The position numbers were made by a program, and so were the translations under genes. Below are positions 34,691-51,684 of a stretch of DNA of 51,684 nucleotides, in pieces. Every line of letters starts with the position of its first letter. The first letter of the stretch is position 1. Below the pieces are notes generated by a model, which was not told the origin of the DNA, did not search any database, and saw only the letters and a list, made by a program, of their open reading frames with translations. Source of the DNA: Ralstonia sp. TCR112 (lineage in GTDB: Bacteria; Pseudomonadota; Gammaproteobacteria; Burkholderiales; Burkholderiaceae); assembly GCF_007997035.1 (NCBI RefSeq), contig NZ_VOSS01000080.1, forward strand, positions 1 through 51,684, written 5' to 3'.

Positions 34691-35470
34691 GTGAGCACGG
34701 ACCCGGAACTCCTCATCGAGCGGCGCGGCCAAGCGCTGTGGCTGACCATTCAGCGCGAAGACCGCCGCAACGCGATCAACGCCGCCGTGCTCGAAGCGCT
34801 GACTGCCGCGCTGGCCGACGCCGGCCGTGACGCCGCCGTGCGCGCCGTGGTGCTGACCGGCGCCGGCACGCGCGCCTTTTGTGCGGGGGCCGATCTGCAA
34901 AGCGGCCAGTCCTTCCGCTTCGACTATTCCCAGCCGCACCAGGCGCTGGCCGATCTGTTTCGCGCGGCGCGTCGCTGCACCGTGCCGCTCGTCGCCCGCG
35001 TGAACGGCGCGTGCATGGCGGGCGGCATGGGCTTGCTGGCGATGTGCGATCTGGCGGTGGCCAGCCGCCGCGCCACGTTCGGGTTGCCGGAGGTGAAGGT
35101 CGGCCTGTTTCCAGCGCAGGTGCTGGCCGTGCTGCAGCACCAGTTGCCACGTCGCGTGCTCAATGAACTCTGCCTGACGGGCGAACCGATGAACGCAGAC
35201 CGCGCGCTCGCCGCCGGCCTCGTCAACGAAGTCGCCGAGCCTGAAGCGCTGGATGCGGCAGTCGACGCATTGCTCGCGCGGCTGGTCGACAAATCGCCGT
35301 CGGCCATCCGGCGCGGCCTGTACACGCTCAAGCACGTCGAGCATCTCAGCTTCGAGCAGGCCATGGCCTTTACCGAAAGCCAGATCGGCCTGTTTGCACT
35401 GACTGAAGACGCGCAGGAAGGCCAGGCCGCCTTTCGCGAAAAGCGCGCGCCCAACTGGACGGGCCGCTGA
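34691..35470 (+). CDS. atuE: Crotonase-family enoyl-CoA hydratase, probable isohexenylglutaconyl-CoA hydratase (AtuE-like)
   Basis: Crotonase-fold enzyme of about 259 residues heading the atu-like operon; by position it would hydrate isohexenylglutaconyl-CoA. The GTG at 34691 (STDPELLIERRG) is chosen as start, as a TTG at 34643 would add 16 residues of low value. The oxyanion hole is RAFCAGAD and NGACMAGGMG. The usual first catalytic Glu of hydratases is replaced by L115 (GGMGLLAMCD), while the second, E134 (FGLPEVKVG), stays. So it may be a hydratase with a changed mechanism, or a different crotonase. Its stop is 1 bp before atuA. Confidence 0.75.
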   Translation: MSTDPELLIERRGQALWLTIQREDRRNAINAAVLEALTAALADAGRDAAVRAVVLTGAGTRAFCAGADLQSGQSFRFDYSQPHQALADLFRAARRCTVPLVARVNGACMAGGMGLLAMCDLAVASRRATFGLPEVKVGLFPAQVLAVLQHQLPRRVLNELCLTGEPMNADRALAAGLVNEVAEPEALDAAVDALLARLVDKSPSAIRRGLYTLKHVEHLSFEQAMAFTESQIGLFALTEDAQEGQAAFREKRAPNWTGR

Positions 35471-35471
35471 C

Positions 35472-37244
35472 ATGCGCAAGGACACCATTTCCATCGGCGG
35501 GGCCAGCGGTTTCTGGGGCGACAGCGTGACCGGGCCACTGCAGCTGGTGGCCTCTGGCCGCATCGACTTCCTCGTCTTCGATTACCTGGCCGAGCTGACC
35601 ATGTCGTTGCTGGCCAGCGCCCGCATGAAAAACCCCGAGTTGGGTTACGCCACCGACTTTGTGAGCGTGGCGATGCGCGCGGTGCTCAAGGATGCGCTGG
35701 CGCAGAACATCCGCATCATCGCCAACGCGGGCGGCGTGAATCCGCGCGGATGCGCGGCGGCGCTGCAAGCGTTGGCCGCTGAGCTGGGCGTCAGCGTGCG
35801 CATTGCCGTTGTGGAAGGCGACGACGTCACGCCGCTGCTGCCCGCGCTGCGCGACGAGGGCGTGCGCGAGCTGCAAAGCGGCCGCCCCTTGCCCGACAAG
35901 GTGGTCAGTGCCAACGCGTATCTCGGCGCATTGCCGATCAAGGCAGCGCTGGATGCCGGCGCGCAGGTTGTCATCACGGGGCGATGCGTCGACAGCGCCG
36001 TCACGCTCGGCGCGTTGATGCACCACTTCGGCTGGGCGATCGACGACTACGATCGACTCGCTGCCGGCAGCCTCGCCGGGCACATCCTTGAATGCGGCTG
36101 CCAAGGCGCGGGCGGCCTGCACACCGATTGGGAAGCCGTGCCCGATTGGGCGCACAGCGGCTACCCGATCGCCGAATGCCGGGCCGACGGCAGCTTCATC
36201 GTCACCAAGCCCGACGGCACGGGCGGGCTGGTGACGCCTGCGACCGTGGGCGAACAGCTGCTCTACGAAATCGGCGACCCCGCGCGCTATGTCCTGCCTG
36301 ACGTCGTCTGCGATTTCACGCAGGTGACGATGGTGCAGGCCGGCGAGCATCGCGTCGAAGTGCGCGGCGCACGCGGCCTTCCGCCGACGCCCGATTACAA
36401 GGTGAGCGCAACGTATGCCGACGGCTATCGCGCGACGGGTCAGCTCACCGTTGTCGGCATCGATGCCGATCGCAAGGCACGCCGCACAGCCGAGGCGATT
36501 CTGGAGCGCACGCGCGGCCTGTTCCGCCAGCTCGGCCTGCCGGACTACAGCGCAACGCATATCGAGACGCTGGGTTCGGCATATCTGTTCGGGCCGCATC
36601 AGCCGACCGCGCACCGTTTTGAATCGGTGATGTGGCTGGCGGTGACGCATCCGAACAAGCAGGCGTTGGAACTGTTCGCGCGCGAGATCGCCCCGGCCGG
36701 CACGTCGTGGGCGCTCGGCACGACCGGCGCCGGCGGGCGGCCGAGCGTGGTGCCGGCCATCAAGCAATACGCCTTCCTGATCGACAAGGCGCGCGTGCAG
36801 CCGCGCGTGACGTTGCTGGGTGAGGAAGGCTTCGACATTGCCGTGCCGACGGGCGGCGCTGCGCTGGAAGCATCCGCTGTTGCGCCGGCATCGGCTGCAT
36901 TGCCGCCCGGCCCGACGCGGGACGTGCCGCTCATCGAACTCGCCTACGCGCGCAGCGGCGACAAGGGCGACACCTCCAATATCGGCGTCATCGCGCGTCG
37001 GCCTGAAGACCTGCCATTGCTGCGCGCGCAGCTGACCGCTGAGGCCGTCGCGGCGTACCTCGCGCACGTCGTGAAGGGGCGTGTGACGCGCTACGACCTG
37101 CCCGGCATCCACGCCCTCAATTTTGTGTGCGAGCAAGCGCTGGGCGGTGGCGGCATGGCGTCGCTGCGCAACGACCCGCTCGGCAAGGGCATGGCGCAGG
37201 TGCTGCTGACGATGCCTGTGCGCGTGCCGGCCGGCCCCATTTGA
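35472..37244 (+). CDS. atuA: AtuA-family acyclic terpene utilization protein
   Basis: Protein of 590 residues with the AtuA (DUF1446) domain over about residues 1-450 (ISIGGASGFWGDSV, then FDYLAELTMSLLA and ANAGGVNPRGCAAAL) and a C-terminal 100-residue domain that starts near VPLIELAYARSGDKGDTSNIGV. AtuA is required for growth on citronellol and related terpenes in Pseudomonas, but its reaction is not known. The length fits the family. It follows the crotonase gene with a 1-bp gap and precedes an acyl-CoA dehydrogenase by 14 bp, so all belong to one transcript. Confidence 0.88.
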   Translation: MRKDTISIGGASGFWGDSVTGPLQLVASGRIDFLVFDYLAELTMSLLASARMKNPELGYATDFVSVAMRAVLKDALAQNIRIIANAGGVNPRGCAAALQALAAELGVSVRIAVVEGDDVTPLLPALRDEGVRELQSGRPLPDKVVSANAYLGALPIKAALDAGAQVVITGRCVDSAVTLGALMHHFGWAIDDYDRLAAGSLAGHILECGCQGAGGLHTDWEAVPDWAHSGYPIAECRADGSFIVTKPDGTGGLVTPATVGEQLLYEIGDPARYVLPDVVCDFTQVTMVQAGEHRVEVRGARGLPPTPDYKVSATYADGYRATGQLTVVGIDADRKARRTAEAILERTRGLFRQLGLPDYSATHIETLGSAYLFGPHQPTAHRFESVMWLAVTHPNKQALELFAREIAPAGTSWALGTTGAGGRPSVVPAIKQYAFLIDKARVQPRVTLLGEEGFDIAVPTGGAALEASAVAPASAALPPGPTRDVPLIELAYARSGDKGDTSNIGVIARRPEDLPLLRAQLTAEAVAAYLAHVVKGRVTRYDLPGIHALNFVCEQALGGGGMASLRNDPLGKGMAQVLLTMPVRVPAGPI

Positions 37245-50310: not shown

Positions 50311-50340
50311 CTCTAGCGTTATTCGACGGTCATTCGGGCG

Positions 50341-51684
50341 TCATTCCGCCGGCTTGAACGCCAGCAGCTGCACACCTTCCGTCACCTGATCGCCCACGCC
50401 ATACAGCACGGATTCGACGACGCCGTCGGCCGGTGCGGTGAGCGTGTGCTCCATCTTCATGGCTTCCATGACGACCAGCGGCGCGCCCTTGGTGACGGTC
50501 TGCCCGGGCGCGGCCAGCACGGCGATGACCTTGCCTGGCATCGGCGCCGTCAGCTTGCCGCCTTCGTCGTCCGCTTCGCCCGCATGGGCGAGCGGATCGT
50601 GACGCTCGAGCGTCCAGTGCGCGCCACCGGTGAAGACGTGGAACGCATCGCCATCGGCATGCACCTGGCCGGTCGCCTTGTGCGTGCCGAGGGTGACGGT
50701 GAAGGTCTCGGCATGGCGCTGCGAGGTGAAGGGCGCTTCGCTGCCGCCAGCTTTCAGCCGCGAGCCGTCGCGGCCGTAGATGAGGGTCGCGTCGATGGAC
50801 TGATCGCCATGCGTGAAACGCAGCGTGCGCTCAGCAGCACCGTTCAGCCGCCAGCCGCTGCCGCGTGCCCACGGCGAATGCGGGTCGCGCGTGTCGGTGC
50901 GCAGGCTGCGCGCCTCGCGGGCGAGCAACGCTGCCACGGCCAGGGCGATGGCGTCTTGCGGCACGTCCGGTGCGGCGGGGAACAGCGTGTCGTGATTGCG
51001 CGCGATCAGGCCGGTATCCAGATCGGCGGTCGCAAACGGCTTCGATGCAACAAGCCGGCGCAGGAATGCCACGTTGGACGACAGCCCCACCAGGTGGAAG
51101 CCGCCCAGCGCCTGCAGCATGCGCGCGAGCGCTTCGTCACGGTCACGGCCCCAGACGATCAGCTTGGCGATCATCGGGTCGTAGTACGGGCTGATGGCGT
51201 CGCCCTCGCGCACGCCAGCGTCGATGCGCACAGCGGCGGGTTCGCCATTGGCTTGCGCGCCGACGGTGAACTCCACCGCTGCCGGCGTGCGCAACACCTT
51301 CAGCGTGCCGATGGAGGGCAGGAAATCGCGGTCAGGGTTTTCAGCGTAAATGCGTGCTTCCAGCGCGTGGCCGTGGATGTGCAGTTCGTCCTGCCTGCGC
51401 GGCAGCGGCTCGCCGGCGGCCACGCGCAATTGCCATTCGACGAGGTCTTCGCCCGTGATCATTTCGGTGACCGGGTGCTCGACCTGCAGGCGCGTGTTCA
51501 TCTCCATGAAGTAGAACGTGCCGTCTTCGTCGACGATGAATTCGACCGTGCCGGCGCCCACGTAGCCCACGGCGCGCGCGGCAGCCACGGCGGCTTCGCC
51601 CATCGCGCGGCGGCGCTCCAGTGTCATGCCTGGCGCCGGGGCTTCTTCCAGCACCTTCTGGTGGCGGCGCTGCACCGAGCAATC
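50341..51684 (-). CDS. liuD: Acyl-CoA carboxylase alpha (biotin) subunit, LiuD-like, partial
   Basis: C-terminal 447 residues of a biotin carboxylase/biotin carrier protein; the start lies beyond the right edge, the frame being open at 51684 (DCSVQRRHQK). The ATP-grasp end (EMNTRLQVEHPVTEM) and biotin carboxylase C-domain (GHALEARIYAENPDRDFLPS) are followed by a linking domain and a biotinyl domain with EAMKMEH. It is probably methylcrotonyl-CoA carboxylase alpha, since HMG-CoA lyase lies next, but a propionyl/acetyl-type alpha subunit cannot be excluded from this part. Not identical to AtuF at 42189: the sequences differ throughout. Confidence 0.85.
   Translation of the reverse strand, partial: DCSVQRRHQKVLEEAPAPGMTLERRRAMGEAAVAAARAVGYVGAGTVEFIVDEDGTFYFMEMNTRLQVEHPVTEMITGEDLVEWQLRVAAGEPLPRRQDELHIHGHALEARIYAENPDRDFLPSIGTLKVLRTPAAVEFTVGAQANGEPAAVRIDAGVREGDAISPYYDPMIAKLIVWGRDRDEALARMLQALGGFHLVGLSSNVAFLRRLVASKPFATADLDTGLIARNHDTLFPAAPDVPQDAIALAVAALLAREARSLRTDTRDPHSPWARGSGWRLNGAAERTLRFTHGDQSIDATLIYGRDGSRLKAGGSEAPFTSQRHAETFTVTLGTHKATGQVHADGDAFHVFTGGAHWTLERHDPLAHAGEADDEGGKLTAPMPGKVIAVLAAPGQTVTKGAPLVVMEAMKMEHTLTAPADGVVESVLYGVGDQVTEGVQLLAFKPAE

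Follow-up and report, generated by a model that had tools for sequence, protein, structure and literature searches.

A probable atu-type isoprenoid acid cassette adjoining the liu genes in Ralstonia

Results

A nine-gene cassette next to liu genes

This study concerns a group of genes in Ralstonia sp. TCR112 (genome G000) that resembles the atu genes for acyclic terpene breakdown and adjoins genes of the leucine/isovalerate (liu) type. The window, that is, the whole stretch of 51,684 nucleotides that was analyzed, is contig NZ_VOSS01000080.1. Its sequence makes it quite probable that nine genes (ech to tetR) constitute an atu-type cassette whose products would strip the beta-methyl group from 3-methyl-branched isoprenoid acids (citronellate, geranate) and pass 3-methylcrotonyl-CoA to the adjoining liu pathway. 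An initial annotation, made from the letters of the window, had named eight of these genes and two on the liu side, and its account of them was borne out: they are open reading frames in the order and on the strands claimed, and hidden Markov model scans confirmed the families (start codons were picked by eye). It had also suspected a Ralstonia relative, in agreement with an AtuC protein 99% identical to that of Ralstonia sp. UNC404CL21Col.

The features are listed in Table 1. The tetR and ligase genes are convergent, with ends six bases apart, and the true start of tetR is probably the ATG at 46534. From its gene context, tetR is taken as the ninth member of the cassette; it is retained with the cassette in Dyella and Oxalobacteraceae, and the tetR leader is common to Dyella. 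The acd2 and atuF genes are separated by 4 bp, the slot for AtuE between AtuD and AtuF being empty. The gene arrangement up to liuE is preserved in seven of eight other Ralstonia-clade loci (L005, L006, L008, L009, L010, L033, L053), the eighth (L007) stopping within the cassette. Such conservation is far beyond chance.

Table 1. Features of the cassette and of the liu side in the window
Feature	Position	Strand	Remark
Putative operator of the cassette TetR, TTCAATC-N4-GATTTA	34623..34639	+	begins 68 bp upstream of the ech start codon
ech, crotonase-family hydratase, likely AtuE stand-in (isohexenylglutaconyl-CoA hydratase)	34691..35470	+	
AtuA, PF07287 (479 bits) plus AtuA_ferredoxin domain	35472..37244	+	
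acd1, extra acyl-CoA dehydrogenase with AtuD-like Glu/Gly active-site pattern	37259..38425	+	
Short-chain dehydrogenase/reductase (SDR), AtuB orthologue	38472..39359	+	
AtuC, carboxyltransferase (beta) subunit of geranyl-CoA carboxylase (GCC) type	39346..40965	+	
acd2, AtuD orthologue (citronellyl-CoA dehydrogenase type)	41027..42184	+	
AtuF, biotin carboxylase plus biotin carboxyl carrier (alpha) subunit, EAMKM biotin site	42189..44183	+	
AMP-forming acyl-CoA ligase, in AtuH position but no AtuH orthologue	44261..45850	+	
TetR repressor (AtuR-like), final cassette gene	45857..46534	-	
Metallo-beta-lactamase (MBL)-fold hydrolase, liu side	46596..47549	-	present in two genomes without the cassette
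YbaK-like deacylase, liu side	47839..48339	-	
LiuE, 3-hydroxy-3-methylglutaryl-CoA (HMG-CoA) lyase	48360..49283	-	NF004283 493 bits, cut-off 246
GhrA-like 2-hydroxyacid dehydrogenase, liu side	49291..50232	-	
LiuD, alpha subunit of methylcrotonyl-CoA carboxylase (MCC), 3' part only	50341->51684	-	5' part beyond the contig end

Correspondence with the Pseudomonas atu genes

Four Pseudomonas clusters (L109-L112) were compared with the cassette. L109 served as reference; its AtuC shares 90% identity with the GCC in PDB entry 5ikl. Orthologues of AtuA, AtuB, AtuC, AtuD and AtuF are all present together. Identity to the L109 genes amounts to 53% for AtuA, 59% for the SDR (AtuB position), 53% for AtuC, 67% for acd2 (AtuD position), 52% for AtuF (47% for LiuD) and 36% for TetR, whose identity to the Pseudomonas regulators ranges between 35% and 38%. 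A quick tree of alpha subunits, with a single, distant outgroup, placed AtuF in a 19-row clade without LiuD (support 94). The initial annotation had matched eight genes to the atu set. This stood for the five orthologues just named; the crotonase is not AtuE, the ligase is not AtuH, AtuG is absent, and no counterpart of the acyl-CoA dehydrogenase acd1 was found in the four Pseudomonas clusters. Between the cassette ligase and the one that ends the L109 cluster, identity is just 26%. The Pseudomonas set itself varies, AtuG occurring in L109 and L110 only (2/4) and an adjoining ligase in L109 only (1/4). In Pseudomonas sp. RGM2987 (L071) the cluster is reduced to atuR-A-C-D-F, AtuB and AtuE not being found in it, as in Dyella.

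The hydratase was considered separately. The Ech protein is 33% identical to AtuE, which is itself 36% identical to LiuC. In a quick tree of crotonases (52 rows), the ech rows form a separate 15-row clade and the AtuE rows a 25-row clade, the latter mostly from the slot between D and F. At the catalytic positions, named after rat hydratase numbering, Ech has Gly at the first and Glu at the second, the single-glutamate pattern of the AtuE and LiuC rows. A PAQ motif is common to Ech and AtuE; Ralstonia LiuC has PAT. With model NF004227 ("gamma-carboxygeranoyl-CoA hydratase"), Ralstonia LiuC scores 263-265 bits and Ech 143-151. On the strength of these motifs and scores, the hydratase of the pathway is likely to be Ech or the neighbouring LiuC. 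NF004227 was also tried as a test for AtuE and rejected: its sole match above cut-off is a Pseudomonas gene adjoining liuB, presumably LiuC, so that the name of the model does not identify AtuE.

The acyl-CoA dehydrogenases acd1, acd2 and AtuD share a relocated catalytic Glu in [HE]ERL and a Gly in IGGG, which we take to be the isovaleryl/long-chain pattern; the acyl-CoA dehydrogenase near liuB has the canonical IYEG. In related betaproteobacterial atuC-D-E-F clusters (L046, L047, L049, L051, L056), the genes are adjoined by an HMG-CoA-lyase homologue 35-38% identical to LiuE, and AtuA was not found within these loci. An argument that AtuA is the lyase, drawn from this alternation, was dropped because AtuA-family genes occur elsewhere in those five genomes.

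AtuC groups with geranyl-CoA carboxylases

The carboxylases of the atu and liu pathways are paralogues. The initial annotation had named grouping of AtuC with MCC as the outcome that would speak against an atu-type cluster, and had pointed to a Phe/Gly specificity residue. In phmmer comparisons, window AtuC scored 591 bits with the GCC beta subunit (5ikl, best solved match) and 480 bits with the MCC beta subunit (3u9r). A tree of 55 rows was rooted on five distant carboxyltransferases, assumed from strong PF01039 scores to be propionyl- or acetyl-CoA carboxylases. Window AtuC and Pseudomonas GCC shared a clade of 34 rows (99/100), and the ten MCC rows made up another (100/96). Within the GCC side, the window clade is sister to the Pseudomonas-GCC group, the latter with support of only 83/64. 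Constraining the window clade to group with MCC lowered the log-likelihood by 92.85 and was rejected by the approximately unbiased (AU) test (p 6.6e-10), for which the hypothesis came from the initial annotation and the row lists were drawn up after the tree was seen. The idea of the cassette carboxylase as an MCC-type paralogue was thus rejected on the rooted tree and the AU test.

According to the part of PMC4673880 drawn on here, GCC carries Gly at the position of the active-site Phe of MCC and lacks a three-residue insertion of MCC. Window AtuC has the Gly and is without the insertion; the position was counted without gaps from the conserved A-x-x-S-A that follows the segment, MAFFT having gapped the Phe column. 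By tree, AU test and this sorting rule, AtuC is assigned to GCC and not to MCC; carboxylation of cis-geranyl-CoA is predicted.

The pocket segment was taken to run from G-x-x-L up to the A that precedes the S-A motif. It has length 20 and NQA in MCC (10/10) and length 17 on the Pseudomonas GCC side (9/9; xQA in eight, NMA in one). All 54 rows of the window clade have length 18 and xLA, that is, a segment two residues shorter than in MCC and one longer than in GCC; 33 of them read WLA, these being the Ralstonia, Dyella, Cupriavidus and Oxalobacteraceae part of the clade. The remaining eight rows comprise xLT (5), NQA (2) and one with no readable motif, two of the eight also having length 18. 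In many loci, AtuC of this third pocket type is accompanied by non-orthologous hydratase and ligase. PDB 9tps, a chain in the comparison that is labelled propionyl-CoA carboxylase beta, falls among the MCC rows and shows their HFGR motif; the label may be mistaken, or this may be an atypical entry.

A putative operator before ech

The near-palindrome TTCAATC-N4-GATTTA was first spotted by eye in a handful of leaders. The 51.7-kb window holds a single match at 0-2 mismatches, that at 34623; five mononucleotide shuffles gave zero at that level. In 28 loci, which include those used to spot the motif and many close relatives, either the first-gene leader (22 loci) or the first 8.6 kb (L013, L015, L027, L028, L031, L035) was scanned. 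The best match had 0-2 mismatches in 26 of them, and 3 (L029) or 4 (L070) mismatches in that register in the other two. Stray two-mismatch matches lie outside leaders in L013, L021 and L070, and none at 0-2 mismatches was found in L036, L038, L045, L061, L071, L109 and L111. The published AtuR site, AGCAAGCGCTTGG (given in the part of PMC9973270 consulted), served as positive control and was recovered in 7/7 Pseudomonas/marine loci.

In the complete Ralstonia relative used for the liu side (L076/L077, see below), both strands of the stretch from thiolase to ghrA (L076) gave no match at up to 3 mismatches, and the sole match on both strands of L077 is the site before ech. With the motif in the window only before ech and none in L076, the cassette is most likely under its own control, separate from liu, through this putative operator. 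Since none was found in the liu stretch searched, atu and liu are joined in the sense of neighbouring, not of one operon. The pairing of the cassette TetR with the operator is putative.

The liu side and the region beyond the contig end

The window ends within liuD. In the relative the order is thiolase, SDR, acyl-CoA dehydrogenase, haloacid dehalogenase (HAD) phosphatase, liuB, hydrolase, liuC, bioB, liuD, ghrA, liuE, ybaK, MBL and tetR, followed by the cassette on the opposite strand (thiolase, HAD, hydrolase and bioB were named by eye in L076; bioB was confirmed with TIGR00433). LiuB, LiuC, LiuD and LiuE thus stand together there, LiuD and LiuE being those seen in the window, and liuB and liuC lie beyond the point corresponding to 51684, where the initial annotation had expected them. 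In G000, liuB and bioB were not found, and the sole NF004227 match is ech. As neither these nor a liuC-type gene was found, the liuB-liuC-bioB piece is probably missing from the assembly, through a gap. A dispersed repeat of about 200 bp (measured by eye), with a CTTTCTTTG...CAAAGAAAG hairpin, occurs in L076 at about 6840-7050, 15900-16200 and 16300-16520. It stands before thiolase and before liuD, its core hairpin also after bioB, and may be the cause of the gap beyond liuD.

The position of bioB, the biotin synthase gene, is an observation in its own right. A single bioB (L076:14821-15900) lies about 3 kb from liuB in four of four Ralstonia genomes (G011, G014, G016, G019), between liuC and liuD in the three loci read (L076, L084, L085). 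The distance is about 5.7 kb in Noviherbaspirillum (G005); bioB is not near liuB in Dyella (2 genomes), Paraburkholderia and Pseudomonas. The presence of MCC, GCC and the sole bioB in one neighbourhood leads to a hypothesis on biotin supply.

Distribution and history of the cassette

Sixteen Ralstonia genomes, G000 included, were surveyed. AtuC is found in 13 at 94-100% identity and LiuB in 15, the G000 assembly being the only one without. In eight of the 12 other carriers AtuC and liuB share a contig, on opposite strands and 16,476 to 16,865 bp apart; in four they are on separate contigs. The non-carriers of AtuC are G009 (a 90%-complete assembly of 370 contigs), G016 and G019. The match of G016 to the window breaks at 34482 and restarts at 46594, so that about 12.1 kb is absent and MBL to liuD is present; G019 additionally is without the TonB-receptor stretch. 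From liuC to MBL, the genes are intact in both. That stretch (30657-34484, between the left flank and the cassette), which holds a Fiu-like TonB receptor, a Sel1-repeat protein and a gene of no assigned family, is a separate presence/absence unit, absent in G019 and retained in G016.

G019 retains the tetR leader and first codons. Because the same leader occurs in Dyella, where no MBL gene was found in the loci, this remnant looks like a deletion scar; it is not evident in G016. In the liuB tree, whose resolution is poor (stars on 4 of 15 inner branches), non-carriers are scattered among carriers. The scar in G019 and this scatter make loss of the cassette in the non-carrier lines more likely than late gain.

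Among the matches listed for 299 genomes of the family, AtuC-like proteins of at least 57% identity are present in 19 of the 285 that do not belong to Ralstonia, and a single one (85%) comes close to the window protein. The AtuC proteins of Dyella, a gammaproteobacterium, are 86-91% identical (five loci), the LiuB proteins 77-78% (two genomes), and Dyella AtuC groups with Ralstonia (100/98) in an 81-row midpoint-rooted tree. Given the excess of AtuC over LiuB identity and this grouping, the atu copies of Dyella and Ralstonia are, to judge by sequence, related by horizontal transfer. Four of five Dyella clusters retain just atuA-C-D-F-tetR, and one has ech as well. AtuC lies far from liuB or on another contig in Dyella (2), Noviherbaspirillum, Paraburkholderia and Pseudomonas (1 each), and the flanks retrieved for the Dyella and Oxalobacteraceae loci yielded no liuB, liuD or LiuE-like gene. 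No repeats of at least 9 bp were seen at the cassette boundaries in the stretches compared. The cassette has a guanine plus cytosine content of 66.9%, not different from its flanks (66.5 and 67.3%), and its composition is therefore uninformative on origin.

Discussion

The atu-type cassette is real, conserved and probably functional; it represents a known pathway in rearranged form and no novel kind of system. Pathway roles of AtuB/AtuG, AtuD, AtuH, AtuC/AtuF, AtuE and AtuA, and a role of LiuE as lyase for the terpene intermediate too, are taken from the parts of PMC4847356, PMC4097962 and PMC8637051 consulted. With the orthology of A, B, C, D and F, the GCC-side placement of AtuC and the history of the neighbourhood as starting points, the substrate and all reactions are predicted as follows. 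The ligase would form the CoA ester, acd2 (AtuD) would yield the 2-enoyl-CoA and AtuC/AtuF would carboxylate the beta-methyl group; hydration would be performed by Ech (or LiuC), and AtuA and/or LiuE would cleave away a two-carbon piece. After the lyase step, acd1 with Ech, the SDR or general enzymes would carry out beta-oxidation to 3-methylcrotonyl-CoA, the breakdown of which would be completed by LiuB/LiuD, LiuC and LiuE. The cassette TetR would repress the cassette at the operator before ech.

Several findings weigh against this scheme. Orthologues of AtuE, AtuG and AtuH were not found in the cassette, which besides the SDR has no alcohol or aldehyde dehydrogenase of the upper pathway. AtuC, with its third type of pocket segment, reaches just 53% identity to GCC, and the published AtuR site has no match in the window. 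In a first AtuC tree (81 rows, midpoint-rooted), the GCC, MCC and actinobacterial rows grouped together (26 rows, 100/99) apart from the window clade, and a lone distant row, L002, stood near L058 on the side of the window clade. This tree could not place the root and was therefore replaced by the outgroup-rooted tree of 55 rows. No report of pathway use, growth or enzymes in Ralstonia was found in the open-licence literature, a weak negative.

The same chemistry might act on another natural substrate, such as a longer isoprenoid (farnesoate), a methyl-branched fatty acid or a signal resembling the diffusible signal factor (DSF), and not on monoterpenes. We regard this as unlikely, even though the third pocket type is found in 54/54 AtuC proteins of the window clade and the cassette ligase is unrelated to AtuH at the orthologue level. 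Moreover, the atu-like dmg cluster of Pseudomonas nitroreducens is described, in the part of PMC9973270 drawn on here, as induced by DSF and acting in its breakdown, so that the family does not fix the substrate. Against such a substrate, AtuC groups with GCC and retains the Gly, and AtuA, B, D and F are orthologous to terpene genes. The methyl group of DSF is at position 11, not 3, which leaves the need for a carboxylase step doubtful. A bolder proposal, which we consider rather doubtful, is that the betaproteobacterial AtuC clade constitutes, alongside GCC and MCC, a third type of acyl-CoA carboxylase, with a non-geranyl, probably longer or altered, 3-methyl-branched isoprenoid acyl-CoA as substrate.

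That the cassette arose by duplication of liu and serves a second leucine/isovalerate (MCC-type) or other short branched-chain acid pathway might be argued from the paralogy of its carboxylase subunits with MCC and from its position beside liu. This we hold to be highly improbable: the AU test rejects the grouping that it calls for, AtuC has Gly and not Phe, AtuF does not group with LiuD, and an MCC operon already adjoins the cassette. Nor does the duplication fit the distance of AtuC from liuB in Dyella and Noviherbaspirillum or the failure to find liu genes in the fetched Dyella and Oxalobacteraceae flanks. A different matter is whether the adjacency has any functional sense, as the initial annotation had supposed. 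The cassette does adjoin liu; coupling in function fared less well. An accidental neighbourhood, in which the cassette arrived beside liu once and stayed without gain from its position, comes a little short of an even chance. The two sets are convergent and share no operator in the liu stretch searched; liuC to MBL is intact in two Ralstonia genomes from which the cassette is absent, probably lost; and the loci are unlinked in the five Dyella, Noviherbaspirillum, Paraburkholderia and Pseudomonas genomes. Yet adjacency is preserved in 8/8 testable Ralstonia genomes, and the proposed pathway does end in 3-methylcrotonyl-CoA. The atu-liu neighbourhood, seen only in Ralstonia, may be a convenience or an accident. 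The open-licence literature, subscription papers being outside its scope, yielded no report of a joined atu-liu locus, again a weak negative.

With an atu-type pathway for isoprenoid acids as the preferred interpretation, the Ralstonia cassette, having another hydratase, ligase and pocket, offers a natural experiment on the essential members of the atu set and on the evolution of substrate choice among carboxylases. The smallest clusters encountered still have AtuA-C-D-F, and crotonase or ligase neighbours cannot be named AtuE or AtuH by position. The substrate of the third-type pocket is the point most worth testing.

Comparison with known systems

The cassette shares with atuRABCDEFGH of Pseudomonas aeruginosa and P. 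citronellolis the A/B/C/D/F orthologues, the A-B-C-D-F order, a putative TetR repressor, a conserved leader motif and a carboxylase on the GCC side. It differs in that ech comes first, the AtuE slot is empty, AtuG is missing and the ligase is unrelated; that an extra acyl-CoA dehydrogenase lies between A and B and TetR stands at the far end instead of being divergent; and that the leader motif is not the published one and the AtuC pocket is of the third type. Pseudomonas liuRABCDE is matched by LiuD and LiuE in the window and, past the contig end, by LiuB and LiuC in the relative, whose series adds bioB, thiolase, GhrA, YbaK and the MBL-fold gene and adjoins atu. The dmgABCDEFGH/rdmA genes of P. 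nitroreducens HS-18 likewise form an Atu-type cluster with an AtuR-type repressor; unlike the cassette, their products are described in the portion of PMC9973270 consulted as 79-91% similar to P. aeruginosa proteins and implicated in DSF breakdown. Another betaproteobacterial example is Thauera linaloolentis 47Lol, whose pathway its authors called in 2016 the first active Atu pathway demonstrated outside Pseudomonas. As given in the part of PMC4847356 drawn on, its AtuC and AtuF are 54% and 52% identical to those of P. aeruginosa and its matches to AtuE (30%) and AtuH (24%) are weak, as in Ralstonia; its atu genes, unlike those of Ralstonia, are scattered across 24 kb together with genes for linalool isomerase and geraniol dehydrogenase, and its liu genes belong to a different contig.

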